This document shows, in pieces, positions 1,953-23,437 of a stretch of 33,380 nucleotides of DNA; position 1 is the stretch's first letter; the number at the start of each line of letters is the position of its first letter. A program made the translations under genes and the position numbers. The notes below the pieces were generated by a model that saw nothing but the letters and a program-made list of their open reading frames with translations, ran no database searches and had not been told where the DNA came from. The DNA comes from Alphaproteobacteria bacterium (GTDB taxonomy: Bacteria > Pseudomonadota > Alphaproteobacteria > Rs-D84): contig WRJH01000006.1 of NCBI GenBank assembly GCA_009782315.1, positions 1 to 33,380 on the forward strand, read 5' to 3'.

Positions 1953-4520
1953 TCATTCCACCCGCGCCAAATCGTCGTACTCTTTATATTTCGCGTCGCT
2001 TGTAACGCGGTATTCGTACGGCTCGCCATCTTTTGCATACCGGCCGAACAATTCCGCGGCCTTTTGCACGGCGGCGTTAATCATTTCCGCCGCATCCGCA
2101 CCGGAATATTCAATCGGCCGGACATCCCTATTCTTTAATTGTACGAATTTCATCACGATTTCCGATGTCTTATGCCCTATGCCGTATCCGTCTTCGCTTC
2201 GCTTCGCCGCGACGTGTGCCCTATGCCTTAACATATACGCTTCCAGCGGCAATTGCGGCATATTGCCTTCGCCCAATTGTTTTTTATTCGGCGCCGCGCC
2301 GGTTTTGATATCGATGACGGTATCGCCAATAATCATATCCGCGCGCGCCCGAACCGTCCGCCCGGCTATTACGCAATCCAATGGAATCTCAACACCCGAC
2401 CCGTCATCTATGCTCTTTGCCCTATGCTCTATGCTCTGTCGCAACAAAGCTGCGACACTCGGCGCGATTTCCAAAAACCTTTTGCGCCAGAAATGAAACA
2501 GAATGGAATCCGCCGGCAATATTTCCCGCGCCCGCGCATCCAATTCGGCGACAATATCTTCTTCTCTATGCTCTATGCTCTTTGCTCTATGCTCTATTAC
2601 TTCGTGCACCAGAATGCCGAATTCCTTTGCGCCCGGCTCGCGTCCCGGGTCGTCCTTTGGCCTTAACCGCAATATATGCCGCGCATAAAAGGCGTACGGG
2701 TTGTGTATCAGCAATTCCAATTCCGTTACATAAACGTCGTCGTTTATCGCGGGCGGCCGCGGCGCCGACGTATCCAAAGGTTCGTACGGAACAGCGTCAA
2801 TCGCCCGAACCTTTTGCAACCAATCATCGTAAGGCGTAAGGCGTAAGGCGTAAGACGAATCGTCGTCTTGTGTCTTACGTCTCACGGACTCACGCATTAC
2901 GGGTCGCGCTTGCGCGACCGCTATGCGCGACAAAAACCGCGATTCCGTATTTTCGCCGCCGCCGGACATTTTCGACCGGGTCCAATAAATTTCCGGCCCG
3001 CACGACAGATTGATAAAATCCAACGCCATCAATGAAACTTTCCTCTCTGGCGGCGGCAATCCGATGCTGTCCGCAATCCGCCGCGGCAGCCACGGATTTT
3101 CATACCCCATCGCCGGAAACATTCCTTCGTTCAATCCGGTCAGAATAACAGTGTCCGCCGTCTGCATGCGCGATTCTATCGTGCCGACGATTGAAATGGT
3201 TGCGCCTTCGTTTCGCGGCGGCCTGATTGATACCCCGTTCAGGCATTCGGCAACCATGCTTCGCAAATCCCCCGGCGCCAGTTCCAAACCATGCGCGGTC
3301 AAAATATCGGATAAAATTTTCAGCGATTCAAAAACGACGACCGAATCTTCGTCGTTAAATTCCGCCGCCGCGTTTGCGACCGTATCGAACAGATTTGATT
3401 TTTTATATTCGTTGTAAAACTTGAAATCCGAATCATCATCCAGCAAGTTCAATATAAACCGGCCCAAAGCTGTCGCGCTTCCTTTTGTCCCGCCGGAAAA
3501 ATCATAATTCGCGCCGCGCCTGGATAAGGATTCGCACAATCTTTGCGCCGCCGAAATATCCGGCGACACGATTAAAACCGATGCTCCGGCGCCGGATTTT
3601 TCCATTGCGATTTCGGCGACAACTTCGGCCTCTTCCGATTCGCGCGCGCAGTCAATGCGCTGGACGTGGCTCGTGCTGGTGGCTGGCGGCTCGTGATTCG
3701 GATTGTTGGAAAACGCACCGTTCAAAAAACCTATATTGGATTCGCCGACATCTATCATATTCACTTCTTCCGGCTTGACGCCGACCCGCTCTAAAAATTT
3801 AATTTCGGAAAAGTAAGGGTCGCATACATTCTGTGCCGCAACCTTATGTCTTACATCCCCTGGAAAAATGATATATCCGTTGGCAAGCCCCGCGACACGC
3901 TCCATCAAATCGGCCGTCGCGGGAACGGACGCCGTCGACCCGCATACGATGATTCTGCCGTATTGACCCATGTTGTTTATCCATGACCGGATATCGCTGT
4001 TCCGACGCTGCGCCACTGTCTCGCGCCCAGGAAAACATAGGGGCAGAGCTTTTTGCGCCAAATCCAAAAACCGGGCTTTTTCTCTGAAATGTTCGGCGAA
4101 TTCCGGACCGACCAACACCTTCCAATCTATGTCCCGTCCCATGCCCTCGTTTTCAAGATAATCCATCATTCGGATTAAATCTTTTGCAGACGCCATGTTC
4201 GCGCCCGCGCCGTATCCGTTCGCGGCCGACAGCATTTTCGACAGAACAATTGTCCTTTCCAAACCTGACACCGTATCTGCGGCTCCGGATTCCTCATCTT
4301 CCGCGGTATCGTCCGCCGCCTCGCCCAGCGCGACCAGTTTGGGAAGTATCGCCGCACCGCCCGCGCGCCCTGCAATCATTCGTTCGACCGTCCGAACCGC
4401 GCGCCGGCTGGGCAGAAAAATTATGTCGTTTGAAAAATCGGCACCGGACAAGATGTGCCACAAAGCATCTGATAACTTTGCCGGATTGCTGGCGCAAAAT
4501 ATATTCGCTTTTCGCTTCAC
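1953..4520 (-). CDS. addB: Double-strand break repair protein AddB (alphaproteobacterial type)
   Basis: 855 aa; N-terminal IFLPSRRAVRTVERM; helicase-like middle (TVILTGLNEGMFP); C-terminal PD-(D/E)XK nuclease ADMIIGDTVIDIKTG...PQLPLEAYML; GTG start overlapping the engB stop. Confidence 0.9.
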   Translation of the reverse strand: MKRKANIFCASNPAKLSDALWHILSGADFSNDIIFLPSRRAVRTVERMIAGRAGGAAILPKLVALGEAADDTAEDEESGAADTVSGLERTIVLSKMLSAANGYGAGANMASAKDLIRMMDYLENEGMGRDIDWKVLVGPEFAEHFREKARFLDLAQKALPLCFPGRETVAQRRNSDIRSWINNMGQYGRIIVCGSTASVPATADLMERVAGLANGYIIFPGDVRHKVAAQNVCDPYFSEIKFLERVGVKPEEVNMIDVGESNIGFLNGAFSNNPNHEPPATSTSHVQRIDCARESEEAEVVAEIAMEKSGAGASVLIVSPDISAAQRLCESLSRRGANYDFSGGTKGSATALGRFILNLLDDDSDFKFYNEYKKSNLFDTVANAAAEFNDEDSVVVFESLKILSDILTAHGLELAPGDLRSMVAECLNGVSIRPPRNEGATISIVGTIESRMQTADTVILTGLNEGMFPAMGYENPWLPRRIADSIGLPPPERKVSLMALDFINLSCGPEIYWTRSKMSGGGENTESRFLSRIAVAQARPVMRESVRRKTQDDDSSYALRLTPYDDWLQKVRAIDAVPYEPLDTSAPRPPAINDDVYVTELELLIHNPYAFYARHILRLRPKDDPGREPGAKEFGILVHEVIEHRAKSIEHREEDIVAELDARAREILPADSILFHFWRKRFLEIAPSVAALLRQSIEHRAKSIDDGSGVEIPLDCVIAGRTVRARADMIIGDTVIDIKTGAAPNKKQLGEGNMPQLPLEAYMLRHRAHVAAKRSEDGYGIGHKTSEIVMKFVQLKNRDVRPIEYSGADAAEMINAAVQKAAELFGRYAKDGEPYEYRVTSDAKYKEYDDLARVE

Positions 4521-5089
4521 GCCTTACGCCCTATTATTTCATCGCGCAATTCTTCCATGCCTGTCTTTTTTTCGGCCGACGTGGCGATTACACATCCTGT
4601 CGACGCGCCGCGTTTCGCGACCACCCCTTCCGTCTGCGCCTGGCATTCCGCGGCGGCCGTCTTTGATATCTTGTCCGTCTTGGTCAATACGACCTGGTAA
4701 CGGATTGCGTTCGCGTCGCAGAAATTCATCATGTCGATATCGGAATCTTTAAGGCCGTGCCGCGAATCGACCAGTATGAACAGGCGTTCCAACCGTCCCC
4801 GCGACAACAGGTATTTTTCCAATCGCGCCGCCCATTTCGCAATATCCGTCTTTGACGCCTTTGCATATCCGTATCCCGGCAAATCGGCCAATATTATGCC
4901 GGACCAATCGAAAAGATTTATCTGTTGCGTCCGGCCGGGCGTATTAGATGTTCGCGCGGCGCGCATGCCGACCAGCGCATTAAGCAGCGAAGATTTGCCG
5001 ACATTGGACCGCCCGATAAACGCGTATTCCGGCGCGCACCCTTTCGGCAATGATTCGACGGTATCGAACGAGCCTATGAAATTAACCAT
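4517..5089 (-). CDS. engB: Ribosome biogenesis GTP-binding protein YihA/YsxC/EngB
   Basis: GRSNVGKSSLLNALVG, TPGRTQQINLF, LADLPGYGYA, LTKTDK motifs. Confidence 0.95.
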   Translation of the reverse strand: MVNFIGSFDTVESLPKGCAPEYAFIGRSNVGKSSLLNALVGMRAARTSNTPGRTQQINLFDWSGIILADLPGYGYAKASKTDIAKWAARLEKYLLSRGRLERLFILVDSRHGLKDSDIDMMNFCDANAIRYQVVLTKTDKISKTAAAECQAQTEGVVAKRGASTGCVIATSAEKKTGMEELRDEIIGRKA

Positions 5090-5894
5090 GTTTTATTACC
5101 TTTTCGTATGCTTCGGATTTGCTTAACCCCGTGCGGTTTGAAATTTCGGCCGCCGCTTCTTTGGTCTTGTGCCCGGCGGATACGATTTCATTGACAATAT
5201 CGTTGATTTCCGAATCTGACATCTTAACTTCCGGGGCGGGCTCTATCACCAGTACAATCTCCCCCCGTATGCTCTCTGCTATATGCTCTATGCTCTCCAA
5301 CAGTTCCGACGGGTATCCGATTATTGTTTCTTCGTGAATCTTTGTAATCTCGCGGACTATTGCGACGCGGCGTTCCGGACAGACGCGCGCCATCATCCCG
5401 ATTGTGTCCAGGACGCGGTTCGGCGATTCATAATATATTATGGTGTGCCGGATTTTATTGTCTTCGCGAAGATGTTTTTCATCTTTGAAAAATCCCAGAT
5501 AAGTAAACCGGTCCGTGGGAAATCCGGAAAGCACCAGCGCGGACGCGAATGCCGTCGGACCCGGCACGACGAATACCGGCGCGCCTGATTTGCGCGCCGC
5601 GCGGCAAAGGCGGAACCCCGGGTCGCTTATCCCCGGCATTCCGGAATCGGACACCAGCGCGACGGACATTCCGGATAAAATTTTTGCAACCAAATCGTCC
5701 GCCATATCCTGTTCGTTATGTTCGTGAAAGGCGACGCGCTTGGTTTTTATATCGAAATGCGCGGCCAGCTTGCCGGTGACGCGGGTATCTTCGCACGCGA
5801 TTAAATCCGCATTGCGCAAAGTTTCCGCCGCCCGCGGCGACATGTCCGAAAGGTTTCCTATGGGCGTTCCGACGATATAAAGTCCGGGCGTCAT
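5082..5894 (-). CDS. rsmI: 16S rRNA (cytidine1402-2'-O)-methyltransferase
   Basis: LYIVGTPIGNLSDMSPRAAETL, CEDTRVTGKL, SDSGMPGISDPG, VPGPTAFASALVLSGFPTDRF. Confidence 0.95.
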   Translation of the reverse strand: MTPGLYIVGTPIGNLSDMSPRAAETLRNADLIACEDTRVTGKLAAHFDIKTKRVAFHEHNEQDMADDLVAKILSGMSVALVSDSGMPGISDPGFRLCRAARKSGAPVFVVPGPTAFASALVLSGFPTDRFTYLGFFKDEKHLREDNKIRHTIIYYESPNRVLDTIGMMARVCPERRVAIVREITKIHEETIIGYPSELLESIEHIAESIRGEIVLVIEPAPEVKMSDSEINDIVNEIVSAGHKTKEAAAEISNRTGLSKSEAYEKVIKHG

Positions 5895-17763: not shown

Positions 17764-17848
17764 TTGATTTATGATTTCCGATTTAGGATTTCTGATTTAA
17801 TCAGGACAAAGCCAAATCATAAATCAGAAATCCTAAATCGGAAATTAA
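17764..17848. repeat. Inverted pair of GATTTNN heptamer arrays
   Basis: GATTTAT GATTTCC GATTTAG GATTTCT GATTTAA, then the reverse-complement array; perfect shared core ATTTCCGATTTAGGATTTCTGATTTA. Confidence 0.9.
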
Positions 17849-19119
17849 TCTTTCCTTACCTCTACCACGCGCGGGCTCATAAACACCACCAGTTCCGCGA
17901 ACGGCGAAATCAGCGTTTCCGGCGTTTCAACAAACGAATGGGTCGGTATGCCGATAATCACGTAATTGTCGCCCAAAGAAGACGGAACGCTGAACGACGC
18001 TATTTCCCCGCCGCGCGTGCGCAGCGCTATTTTCGCGTCTATTTTCTGATAGCCGCCGTAATCGCCGAACCGTCCGGTCGCGCCGATTATCAGGTCGGTT
18101 TCCAGGCGTTCCTCGCGGGTGCATTGGCCGATGTCGAAACGCGACTGCCAGCCGTTGGGTATGGAAAACGTCCCCTGGGATATAAGGACGACGTTCGATT
18201 GCTGGCCCAGAAAGGTCTGCAGCGTTTTGGTATTGATTTCGGAACTGGTGACAAGCAGGCGGCCCACGACGCCGGGTATCGACATCTTTACATTTTTCTG
18301 TCCGAACGCGGGCAGCATGTTCATCCATATAATGGGGTTATCCGACCGGGGATACACGCGGTACACGTCGATGTCCCACGCGATTATGTATTTCTGCGCG
18401 CCCAGGTCGGCGATGATTTGCCTGGCCTCGCGCTCTGTCTGGTAATTGCCTTCCAGGATAAGCGTCTTGTCTTCCCAGTTGACCATCAGGTTTCGCATAT
18501 TGGCGCCGCGGAACGCGTCGACCAGCGCCATAATCATATTCTGGTCTTTGGGCATTTTAACCAGCCAGCGCGCATTGCGTTTCAGCGTCAAATCCCGCAA
18601 ATCCGAATCGAACGAATAATACGCCTTGCCCATTGTGGTTATCAGTTCGGTCGCGTCTTCAACCTGTCCGGACGCTATGGACCCGGATATTTTGTCCAGT
18701 ATCGGTTCGCTTTCAAGCACGTTTATTCCCGTGCCGGCGAACATTCGTTCCAAGACTTGGGATACGGTCTGCGATTCAAAATCGAAATCGTTCACGCCGA
18801 TATCGGGCAGCGGGTCGCCGGCGTCAAGCCGCACCATTTCCACATCTTCCTGCGGCAGAATGGACAGGACACGCTGGTTTCCCCAGTCGACGATGCAGCG
18901 CGCGGGCAAATCCAGCGCAAACCGGCGCGCGGTGTCGGTGGTCAGCGCGGCCTTGCGCGGATATATCGGCACGGACCTTTCGTCTATGACCAGCGTGTCG
19001 ATGACGCGCACGGTGTCGAATTCCTGCCGCGGCTGACATGCGGGCAATAAAAGGCATAGGGCATAAGGCATAAGGCATATGCGTTTTGTATTTGTCATAA
19101 TTTTTTTCAACGATTTCAT
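17845..19119 (-). CDS. Secretin-like lipoprotein (PilN/BfpB/GspD-type)
   Basis: Lipobox ALCLLLPAC; secretin-like C-terminal end ISPFAELVVFMSPRVVEVRKD. Confidence 0.6.
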   Translation of the reverse strand: MKSLKKIMTNTKRICLMPYALCLLLPACQPRQEFDTVRVIDTLVIDERSVPIYPRKAALTTDTARRFALDLPARCIVDWGNQRVLSILPQEDVEMVRLDAGDPLPDIGVNDFDFESQTVSQVLERMFAGTGINVLESEPILDKISGSIASGQVEDATELITTMGKAYYSFDSDLRDLTLKRNARWLVKMPKDQNMIMALVDAFRGANMRNLMVNWEDKTLILEGNYQTEREARQIIADLGAQKYIIAWDIDVYRVYPRSDNPIIWMNMLPAFGQKNVKMSIPGVVGRLLVTSSEINTKTLQTFLGQQSNVVLISQGTFSIPNGWQSRFDIGQCTREERLETDLIIGATGRFGDYGGYQKIDAKIALRTRGGEIASFSVPSSLGDNYVIIGIPTHSFVETPETLISPFAELVVFMSPRVVEVRKD

Positions 19120-19189
19120 ACCTTGTCCTCTATGTGCGATGTTTCGACAATTTCTTTTATGCCTTATGCCCTATGACTTATGCCATATC
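19051..19189. repeat. Inverted pair of GCATAAG/GCATAGG heptamer arrays flanking the start of the secretin-like gene
   Basis: Left arm GGCATAGGGCATAAGGCATAAGGCATAT (19053-19080); right arm tatgccttatgccctatgacttatgcc (about 19158-19186). Confidence 0.9.
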
Positions 19190-19481
19190 AAATATTCATA
19201 ACTTTTTCAAATTCTTCCAGCGTCATTTCGTGCATGGGCTTTACAGGCGGCGTGACCCATTCCTTTACCGATTCGAATTCCTGTCTGTACGCATCCATGC
19301 GCGCGGCGTCGATTGCGCCGGCCGGCCCGTTCACTATCATTTCCAGAACGTCCGCGGCAAAGAACCGCCCGGCGTATCCTTCGATGGGGATTCCGCCCTT
19401 TATCACGCTGATTGCCGCCTGGACGGTTTTCATCTGTTCGTAAAACGCCGCCAGATTTTCAAATTTTTCGACTTTGCCCAT
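19188..19481 (-). CDS. Hypothetical 97 aa protein
   Basis: ORF MGKVEKFENLAAFYEQM...; no recognised family. Confidence 0.55.
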   Translation of the reverse strand: MGKVEKFENLAAFYEQMKTVQAAISVIKGGIPIEGYAGRFFAADVLEMIVNGPAGAIDAARMDAYRQEFESVKEWVTPPVKPMHEMTLEEFEKVMNI

Positions 19482-19548
19482 GTCCTTCCTCCGCTGGTCT
19501 CCTTATTATAAAAACTATTGCCCATGTTATGCAAATGAATTATACTAT

Positions 19549-19657
19549 AAGGCATAAGTAATAAGGCATAAGGCATAAAAATCTTGAAATTATGGAAAAA
19601 GACTTTAACCGGCTCAAAACGCATATGCCCTATGCCCTATGCCCTGTGCCTTATGGC
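19549..19657. repeat. Inverted pair of GCATAAG-type heptamer arrays flanking the start of a lipoprotein gene
   Basis: Left arm aaggcataagtaataaggcataaggcataa (about 19549-19578); right arm gcatatgccctatgccctatgccctgtgccttatgg (19621-19656). Confidence 0.9.
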
Positions 19658-20006
19658 GCTTTGCGCCTGCTCTTCGTCGAACCGCGGCTCTATCGACAAC
19701 GCGACCATATTGAATTGGGAAAACGAAATGGTCACGACCGAACAATTTGTGCGCGACCACAGGGCGTGCCTTGGCATAAAGCGTTCCCCGCACGAACCGC
19801 GGTCGCGGGTATCGAATCTTCTTATGCCGAATTCCGCGACCCAGCTGCCCGAATGGGACGGCCTTTGGGTGACATTCCAATCCAACGAACATACGGACGT
19901 CGGCCAGCGGATGCTGCTTTCCGTTCCCGCCAACACGACGTCGCAGTCGGTCGGTGCATACCGCAGATGCATGTTCCGCAAGGGATACCTGCTGCGCGCG
20001 GCATAA
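19584..20006 (+). CDS. Hypothetical lipoprotein, TTG start
   Basis: MKLWKKTLTGSKRICPMPYALCLMALCAC signal/lipobox-like N-terminus; the overlapping frame at 19592 lacks a lipobox. Confidence 0.6.
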   Translation: MKLWKKTLTGSKRICPMPYALCLMALCACSSSNRGSIDNATILNWENEMVTTEQFVRDHRACLGIKRSPHEPRSRVSNLLMPNSATQLPEWDGLWVTFQSNEHTDVGQRMLLSVPANTTSQSVGAYRRCMFRKGYLLRAA

Positions 20007-21652: not shown

Positions 21653-23437
21653 ATGAACCTATTAGACTCATCTTATCTGTGCCTTGATATCGGAACTTCC
21701 GGGGTTTCCGGAATGGCGGTCCGGATATCGGGCGGACGGCTGTCGTCGCAACAGACCGCCTCGTTCGAATCCAGCGATATAACAAAGGCCATAAAAAAAA
21801 CCGTGGATATTTTGGAACAATCCATGGGCGTTCGGTTCGATTCCGCATTTGTGACCGGAAATTTCGGCGCAATCGATTATAAAATCATACCTATCAGAAA
21901 AGATTGGGCCAGAGAGCGCAGGATAACAAGTTCGGACATTTCATCCGCGATTATGGACGCGCCCGAAATACGGGGCGGTGCGTCCGTTCTTCATTTGATT
22001 CCGCTGCGGTACGATTTAGAGGATTTTCCAAACATATCGACGCCGGTCGGCCAGGTGTCGAAAAGTCTGTCCGCGATTTTTTGCGCCGTATCGGCGGATA
22101 CGGACGGCATAACGCGCGCGCGCGAACACCTGCGCGCGGCGCACATCAGACCGCGGGAATATTTTGACACGTCCTTTCTTTTGGCCCAGACCGTGCGGCC
22201 GGCCAAAGAATCGTCGTTGTTTATCGATTTGGGCGCGTCGCATACGGCGGTGTCGCTTTGGACAATCCGCGGCCCGATGCTTTTGAAACGGATTCCCGCC
22301 GGCCAGCACGCGGTTACCGACGCCGTCGCCGGCGGACTGGGCCTGCAATGGGGCGCGGCCGAAAAAATAAAGCGCGACAACATATCGCTGGACAGCGGGG
22401 ACAGGGACCGCTTCACGCCCGCATGCGAAAGCGACCAGCACGATTTCACCCGCGCGGATGTCAACGATTTGGCCTTGCCGGCGCTGTATGAAATATTGCA
22501 ACAGGCGGCCGATTTATCCAAGGCATCGCGCGCGAAATATAATCCGACAAAAATATATCTGACCGGGGGCGGCGCGGACATTCCGGGAATGACGGGCGCC
22601 GCGCAAAACATATTCGGGGCGGATGCGGAAATTCCGGGTCCGGGGGCGGCGGCCGCATCATGCGCCGCGTACGTCTGGTCGCGGTATGCGCCCCGCGCCG
22701 CCACAATAGTAATGCGGAAAAAAAGGCGCGGCTTCATCCTGACCGGCATTGCGGGCGGAGTGAGAAAACTGTTCCGGGGACGCAAAAAACAAAAAGCGAT
22801 TCCGATTATGCCCAGCACCCTGGCGTTCAACATGCGCGACATGGCGACGTACGCGCGGTTTCGTTCGGGCGGAATTTCAATGATTCATGTCGACATAATG
22901 GACGGGCTGTACACTTCCGAAATGGCGGGCGGACTGGATGAATTAAAATTCATACGAAAACATACGGACGCCCATCTGCATGTTCACCTGATGACCCAAA
23001 ACCCGGAAACCTGGGCCGCCGCCGCAATGGAATCCGGCGCCGATACGATAATTGTTTCGACCGGAACATACGGCGTCCGCGCCGCGATTGCAAAAATAAA
23101 GTCATGCGGAAAACGCGCAGGGATTGCAATCGGCCCGGACAGTCCGCTTGGGATATTAAAACCCATACTGCGCGAAATCGACGAAGTGCTGGTAATGTCG
23201 GTCGCGCCGGGCAAAGGCGGCCAGAAATTTTTACCGGGCGCCGCGACACGCATAGCGGCGCTGGTCGCGGCGCGAAAAACGCATAAATTGAATTTCAAGA
23301 TTTCCGTGGACGGCGGAATCAATCCGGACACCGCGAAAGAATGCTGGGCGGCGGGCGCGGACGCGTTAGTGTCCGGCAATTTTCTGGCAAAGGCGGCCGA
23401 CTTTCCCGCCGCGGTCCAGGAATTAATCCTGCGTTAA
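21653..23437 (+). CDS. FtsA - ribulose-5-phosphate 3-epimerase fusion (FtsA about residues 1-382, Rpe about 383-594)
   Basis: FtsA motifs LCLDIGTSGVSG, SLFIDLGASHT, IYLTGGGADIPGM and amphipathic FILTGIAGGVRKLFRGR; then Rpe motifs IMPSTLAFNM, MIHVDIMDGLY, HVHLMTQNP, VLVMSVAPGKGGQKF, ISVDGGIN, ADALVSGN; one uninterrupted frame. Confidence 0.93.
   Translation: MNLLDSSYLCLDIGTSGVSGMAVRISGGRLSSQQTASFESSDITKAIKKTVDILEQSMGVRFDSAFVTGNFGAIDYKIIPIRKDWARERRITSSDISSAIMDAPEIRGGASVLHLIPLRYDLEDFPNISTPVGQVSKSLSAIFCAVSADTDGITRAREHLRAAHIRPREYFDTSFLLAQTVRPAKESSLFIDLGASHTAVSLWTIRGPMLLKRIPAGQHAVTDAVAGGLGLQWGAAEKIKRDNISLDSGDRDRFTPACESDQHDFTRADVNDLALPALYEILQQAADLSKASRAKYNPTKIYLTGGGADIPGMTGAAQNIFGADAEIPGPGAAAASCAAYVWSRYAPRAATIVMRKKRRGFILTGIAGGVRKLFRGRKKQKAIPIMPSTLAFNMRDMATYARFRSGGISMIHVDIMDGLYTSEMAGGLDELKFIRKHTDAHLHVHLMTQNPETWAAAAMESGADTIIVSTGTYGVRAAIAKIKSCGKRAGIAIGPDSPLGILKPILREIDEVLVMSVAPGKGGQKFLPGAATRIAALVAARKTHKLNFKISVDGGINPDTAKECWAAGADALVSGNFLAKAADFPAAVQELILR

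Follow-up and report, generated by a model that had tools for sequence, protein, structure and literature searches.

The coding repeats of the Neisseria opa genes are built from the pentamer CTCTT, for which Stern et al. 1986 is reportedly the reference given in citing papers. According to the accessible parts of the literature, this 5-nt unit encodes part of the leader peptide and is known for switching (PMC3899988, PMC3960869). In Rickettsia, palindromic units of about 100-150 bp are dispersed through the genome of an alphaproteobacterium, and some of them are fused inside the reading frames of protein genes, where the available portion of the source regards them as neutral or slightly harmful (PMC2229807). 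The TAACTGA repeats of Beggiatoaceae are abundant 7-nt direct repeats near start codons, in which one strand is closed by a stop in every frame and the other encodes a single heptapeptide over and over; they are mostly intergenic and thought to be regulatory, and a link to signal peptides is not mentioned in the part of the source at hand (PMC4679880). PARCELs, as presented in the extracts available, are palindromic coding repeats of 25-residue amphipathic domains, which are mobile within genomes and have been recruited into the membrane proteome (PMC2996958).

The heptad arrays of an uncultured gut-associated alphaproteobacterium, reported here, share features with each of these systems. As in opa, the tandem unit is not a multiple of three and encodes part of the leader of surface proteins, a non-triplet repeat inside a signal-peptide coding region being found in 27 genes; however, opa is one gene family with a 5-nt unit, whereas here the unit is of 7 nt, the genes are many and unrelated, and the arrays come with inverted partners and a common core holding the start codon and n-region. 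As in Rickettsia, palindromic units are dispersed and some sit in protein-coding genes (18 pairs, one inside a UvrD-type helicase gene), but here the heptad arrays form what we infer to be an N-terminal export signal. The Beggiatoaceae repeat is another unit: ours are TATGCCY and TATGCTC, and no TAACTGA family was present among the period-7 runs of our sample. PARCELs, unlike the arrays, are not signal peptides. By analogy, the arrays may combine the workings of an opa leader repeat with those of a palindromic element inside a coding gene, but because switching and mobility are untested they have not been shown to belong to either class. A literature search restricted to open-access papers, which is no proof of absence, returned no dispersed signal-peptide repeat, and no opa or Rickettsia repeat that supplies signals to many unrelated proteins.

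We propose an exaptation: in many envelope proteins that are unrelated to one another, the arrays have come to serve as the hydrophobic core of the Sec signal peptide or, in some, of the first transmembrane helix. We put the probability of this reading at roughly 85%. The sequence features, location bias and orthologue comparison behind it are observed; that the signals work in export is inferred.

The source genome (G000) is a MAG of 814,626 bases in 60 contigs, 88% complete, and the window, meaning the whole 33,380-nt stretch of DNA analysed, is its contig 6. Our sample of 348,941 bases (43% of the genome) consisted of the window and 20 further stretches (L-numbers), whose selection was partly guided by array matches. 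Its 347 genes were called with a simple dicodon method, giving a coding density of 0.89, and the start sites of array genes are predicted. Arrays are termed type A (TATGCCY) or type B (TATGCTC), together TATGCYY. Signal calls were made with our own heuristic, without SignalP or LipoP; 94 of the 347 genes were signal-like, a count that includes some membrane helices. For comparison we used the nearest relative (G025, record WRCO01) and two array-poor congeners (G021 and G011).

Arrays at the start of two window lipoproteins

The first lipoprotein gene (17845-19119, minus strand; start codon 19117-19119) encodes 424 amino acids, with the signal MKSLKKIMTNTKRICLMPYALCLLLPA/C. Naming the protein from profiles was ruled out, as there was no match in Pfam, NCBIfam or PDB; the name secretin-like is thus that of the original prediction, retained by eye only. 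It has 43 orthologues of 58-80% identity, in records labelled Alphaproteobacteria, Rickettsiales, proteobacterium or bacterium (one is Candidatus Enterousia), and many record names mention rumen, sheep, horse or deer. Directly after the gene, at 17765-17845, lies an inverted pair of another heptad (TGATTTA / AAATCAT), and many non-TATGCYY heptad families occur in the genome.

The array census placed a TATGCCY array at 19053-19079 (minus strand), which is sense for the secretin-like gene and encodes its h-region. The adjoining core at 19080-19156 (minus strand) contains a likely ribosome-binding site (AGAGGACAAGG), the ATG and a basic n-region, and 70 of its 75 aligned bases match the core of the LspA gene. 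Beyond the core, at 19157-19188 (plus strand) and at the 3' end of the preceding minus-strand gene, is an inverted partner array that would be expected to base-pair with 19053-19079 at the RNA level (fold -42.6 kcal/mol, z -5.2).

The second lipoprotein gene (19584-20006, plus strand) encodes 140 amino acids and could be assigned to no named family by Pfam and NCBIfam searches. The same layout was found in the array listing and the survey of facing pairs: an inverted partner array upstream (19547-19578, minus strand), a core with the TTG start at 19584 and a basic n-region (19579-19623, plus strand), and a sense TATGCCY array encoding the h-region (19624-19655, plus strand), with a predicted fold for 19545-19670 of -41 kcal/mol (z -4.3). 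The array begins 40 nt after the TTG. Seven other sample genes have an ATG at equal spacing, and the first heptad starts exactly 40 nt after the start codon in eight of the 27 genes. In-frame ATGs are present within the window arrays, but initiation there would lose the basic n-region. The region before the lipobox cysteine (19655-19667, plus strand) is encoded by a GC-rich palindrome, GGCGC-TTT-GCGCC, whose stem is of 5 only and may be due to chance.

The original prediction held that heptamer arrays encode the signal-peptide core of both lipoproteins, and both arrays do lie in frame, within MKSLKKIMTNTKRICLMPYALCLLLPA/CQPR in the secretin-like protein and MKLWKKTLTGSKRICPMPYALCLMALCA/CSSS in the second. 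The features of a Sec lipoprotein signal (basic n-region, hydrophobic core, small residue before the lipobox cysteine) are present as judged by our heuristic alone, which calls both proteins SPII, along with eight further array genes of the sample; lipidation and export are inferred. The mature proteins had been said to be unrelated, and this was borne out: in a whole-genome search the match of the second lipoprotein to the first was confined to residues 1-31, at 63% identity. This N-terminus is common to four other places in the genome. Not foreseen in the prediction were the inverted partner of each window array, across the start codon, and the 25 further sample genes that share an array-encoded N-terminus.

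The stated arithmetic, that three heptads encode seven residues and that a change in copy number alters length or frame, is correct. Since 7 is prime to 3, 21 nt of array encode the same seven residues in every frame, which for TATGCCT are YALCLMP (mean hydropathy 1.56) and for TATGCTC are YALCSML (1.67), each including a Met and a Cys; TATGCCC gives a value of 0.79. An array can therefore join a coding sequence in any frame, and all three are used by the 27 genes (15, 5 and 7). Adding or removing one or two heptads would put the gene out of frame. The antisense strand of the array has a stop in all three frames. When all 2340 cyclic heptamers were considered, 133 were open, free of charged or N/Q/H residues and of hydropathy at least 1.5. 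Random hydrophobic stretches can serve as signals.

Distribution of arrays in the genome and in its relatives

Three consecutive TATGCYY heptads (with at most two mismatches) were matched 264 times in the 815-kb genome, compared with once for the reversed pattern. The 349-kb sample contained 144 period-7 runs, against 7, 17, 3, 12, 7 and 7 runs of periods 5, 6, 8, 9, 10 and 11 respectively, and this excess over both the reversed pattern and the other periods indicates that the arrays are not due to chance. Types A and B made up 61 of the 144 runs. Their placement was strongly biased, with 22 sense and 0 antisense arrays at gene 5' ends, 13 antisense and 0 sense at 3' ends, and the remainder internal antisense (8), internal sense (4) or intergenic (14).

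The 13 antisense arrays that form gene 3' ends (as in L057:3818-4783 and L047:5345-6055) supply the stop codon and a short tail, for example GHKA. Antisense arrays within genes have lost their stops and encode SIEHRAK-like linkers. Two TATGCTC arrays on the plus strand, at 2407-2437 (stops lost, coding SIEHRAK) and 2564-2597 (coding EHRAKSIEHR), are antisense in the window gene 1953-4520, which has a PDDEXK nuclease domain, and another at 5268-5296 (plus strand, coding SIEHIAESI) is antisense in gene 5082-5894 (TP_methylase/RsmI) and is missing from its G025 orthologue. Other heptads of the genome encode hydrophilic tails and linkers or sit between genes. What becomes of an array seems to depend on the residues it encodes.

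Some further repeats and fusions were noted. All three ACCAGCC arrays of the sample (L044:10419-10446, L049:11773-11797 and L050:4292-4312) are at gene 5' ends and give hydrophilic SHQPPAT tails. One ORF (L051:8066-10093) fuses YbeY with apolipoprotein N-acyltransferase (Lnt) and has a heptad array inside the membrane part of Lnt. Within the window, 14.5 perfect tandem copies of the dinucleotide TG (1728-1756), near the 5' end of gene 42-1805, code THTHTHTH, and a single ORF (21653-23437) fuses an FtsA-like part to ribulose-phosphate 3-epimerase, the two parts being adjacent in the same order in G025 and G021.

A sense array in an open 5' frame, after start extension, was found in 29 sample genes. 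Two of these, rplK and rplP, were removed because the array precedes their true start, leaving 27 genes in which the array encodes a hydrophobic N-terminus. Arrays lie before these two ribosomal-protein genes and before one cytosolic-looking gene, so not every 5' array is a signal. Among the 27, 25 look secretory, one is LspA, with the array in its first helix, and one is unclear (L048, 1500-2888). The Pfam names are OmpA family, SurA_N_3 (below cut-off), BamB, LpoB, signal peptidase II (LspA), LptE, D-Ala-D-Ala carboxypeptidase with SPOR (DacA), DUF2147, MliC, M23, LolA and PagL; the other genes of the set had no Pfam match, and L047:17087-18340 is BamD-like by eye only. By the heuristic, arrays are carried by 26 of 94 signal-like genes (LspA being one of the 26) and 10 of 18 SPII-like genes in the G000 sample, by 15 of 103 and 5 of 14 in G025, and by none of the 84 signal-like genes of G021 or the 120 of G011.

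A Fisher test of arrays against signal-like genes within the sample was discarded: an array creates the very signal being scored, which makes the test circular. The orthologues in G021 and G011 allowed a test independent of the array. The orthologue had a hydrophobic N-terminus for 18 of 19 array genes compared with 61 of 158 others (Fisher p 1.8e-6). These orthologues, found by their mature part, have ordinary signal peptides at the corresponding position, and homology resumes just after the array. For the secretin-like protein, 42 of the 43 orthologues lack a TATGCYY array at the start and have their own lipoprotein-type N-terminus by eye, while the 43rd and nearest carries a TATGCTC array instead. 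The comparison supports the proposal that repeat DNA was co-opted as the export signal or replaced the ancestral one, with export still an inference.

Four genes have type A in G000 and type B in G025 (secretin-like, BamB, LolA and LspA, the last mixed with one A unit), the reverse holds for M23, LptE and an L059 gene, and the array is absent from G025 in LpoB, the BamD-like gene and an L062 gene. That the nearest relative often carries the other heptad or none in orthologous genes indicates that replacement has recurred. The 5'-end bias is repeated in G025 (13 sense, 0 antisense), and in two species of another genus (G100 and G139) A and B occur in orthologues that are 45% identical. Among 201 genomes of the order, 9 had an exact array match, as did 3 among 398 genomes sampled from the phylum; both counts include the source genome. 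Nine array loci were read in other genomes of the family, and seven are signal-like N-termini; of the other two, one (G004) is deep in a long ORF that has a segment resembling, by eye, the Lnt-like gene, and the second (G175) falls within a short ORF. In the two matching genomes outside the order, no signal-like ORF had the array. Two leaders in G011 contain an ACTTTTT array (TFYFLLF).

The palindromic unit and competing explanations

Eighteen neighbouring pairs of arrays face each other, inverted array first, across cores of 44-105 nt; three other pairs within 400 nt do not. In 19 of the 27 array genes an inverted partner lies at most 190 nt upstream, with the start codon and basic n-region in between. 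Similarity extends to the core: when the 43 nt preceding the array were compared between genes, 15 of the 351 pairs scored higher than any of 1755 shuffles, and the core is kept in copies that serve no signal (L057:3716-3820 and L047:5254-5361). A palindrome with a stem of at least 7 follows the array in 10 of the 27 genes, against 2.2% in coding controls rich in GC. Of the 122 long palindromes in the sample, however, only 10 adjoin these arrays, so the palindrome is not a defining part of the unit; whether it belongs at all is the least settled point. Perfect palindromes with a stem of at least 9 in coding sequence number 46 in the G000 sample, 8 in G021, 22 in G025 and 24 in G011.

A unit would thus run from the inverted array through the core (ribosome-binding site, start codon, basic n-region) to the sense array. 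Inserted at a gene 5' end, it would replace the old n- and h-region and leave the cleavage site and mature protein in place. Units may have spread through the genome by an unknown route, with copies at the 5' ends of secretory genes being retained, we infer, because the hydrophobic core can replace the old signal in any frame. The stronger version, in which a mobile palindromic unit is a complete, frame-indifferent signal-peptide cassette, sometimes with a palindromic cleavage region, whose repeated insertion rewrites the secretion signals of the lineage with heptads that differ between species, is held only tentatively, at slightly under even odds. Movement of units as units is inferred, and no empty site or target duplication was seen for the arrays. 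A Y1 transposase as mobiliser, as for REP elements, gained no support: Y1_Tnp (PF01797) had no match in this 88% complete genome (controls matched in 5 of 14).

Could the inverted arrays act instead on RNA or DNA, as a start-codon hairpin, translation control, terminator or protein-binding site, with signal coding incidental? Paired arrays do fold strongly, forming a stem whose loop holds the start codon (z -9.4 for LspA, in addition to the two window values; -0.08 for a negative control, the BamB gene piece L047:10900-10960), pairs also occur before rplK and rplP and between convergent genes, and the Beggiatoaceae heptamers just before start codons are proposed regulator sites in the available text of that report (PMC4679880). 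However, 8 of the 27 genes have a single array without a partner at an unchanged location, secretory families are over-represented among the array genes even when the array itself is disregarded, and the array replaces a conserved hydrophobic stretch of the orthologues, so we consider this explanation unlikely, although both roles could coexist. Slightly less probable still is phase variation, in which envelope proteins would be turned off by a frame shift when one or two heptads are added or dropped, as in Neisseria opa. The unit length of 7, with which copy changes that are not a multiple of three break the frame, and the leader location both fit this idea, but the arrays of signal genes are short and uniform (24-33 nt) and many are imperfect. 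This range was measured across the 27 genes and is uninformative on variation at one locus. Moreover LolA, LptE and LspA, families that are usually essential in Gram-negative bacteria, would be a poor choice for switching.

The arrays might also be selfish or neutral repeats that are tolerated where an N-terminus was hydrophobic to begin with, because they do least harm there, and that bring no benefit. Consistent with this, other heptads land in intergenic DNA, tails or linkers according to the residues they encode, and antisense arrays inside genes have been turned into harmless linkers. This is a serious possibility, which we rate a little below an even chance, but it is compatible with current signal function and differs only on whether selection favoured the arrays, a question that the frequent turnover between heptads does not decide. 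By contrast, we give almost no credence to an assembly artefact, with one repeat spread by the assembler, or to chance codon periodicity of hydrophobic leaders. The MAG is indeed fragmented, into 60 contigs, but the same heptads also occur in intergenic DNA and as inverted pairs, a second genome (G025) shows a bias of the same kind with other heptads in the same genes, and seven of nine array loci in other genomes of the family are signal-like N-termini. Exaptation of the arrays as signal-peptide cores remains our preferred reading.

One consequence is a warning that N-terminal similarity between lipoproteins can stem from a repeat and not from common descent. On the exaptation reading, repetitive DNA could yield a new export signal in a single step, given a unit that encodes hydrophobic residues and has a length sharing no factor with three, so that it reads alike in any frame. 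The results suggest that a sizeable share of the envelope proteins of a lineage can draw their signals from one recent, recurrent DNA source.
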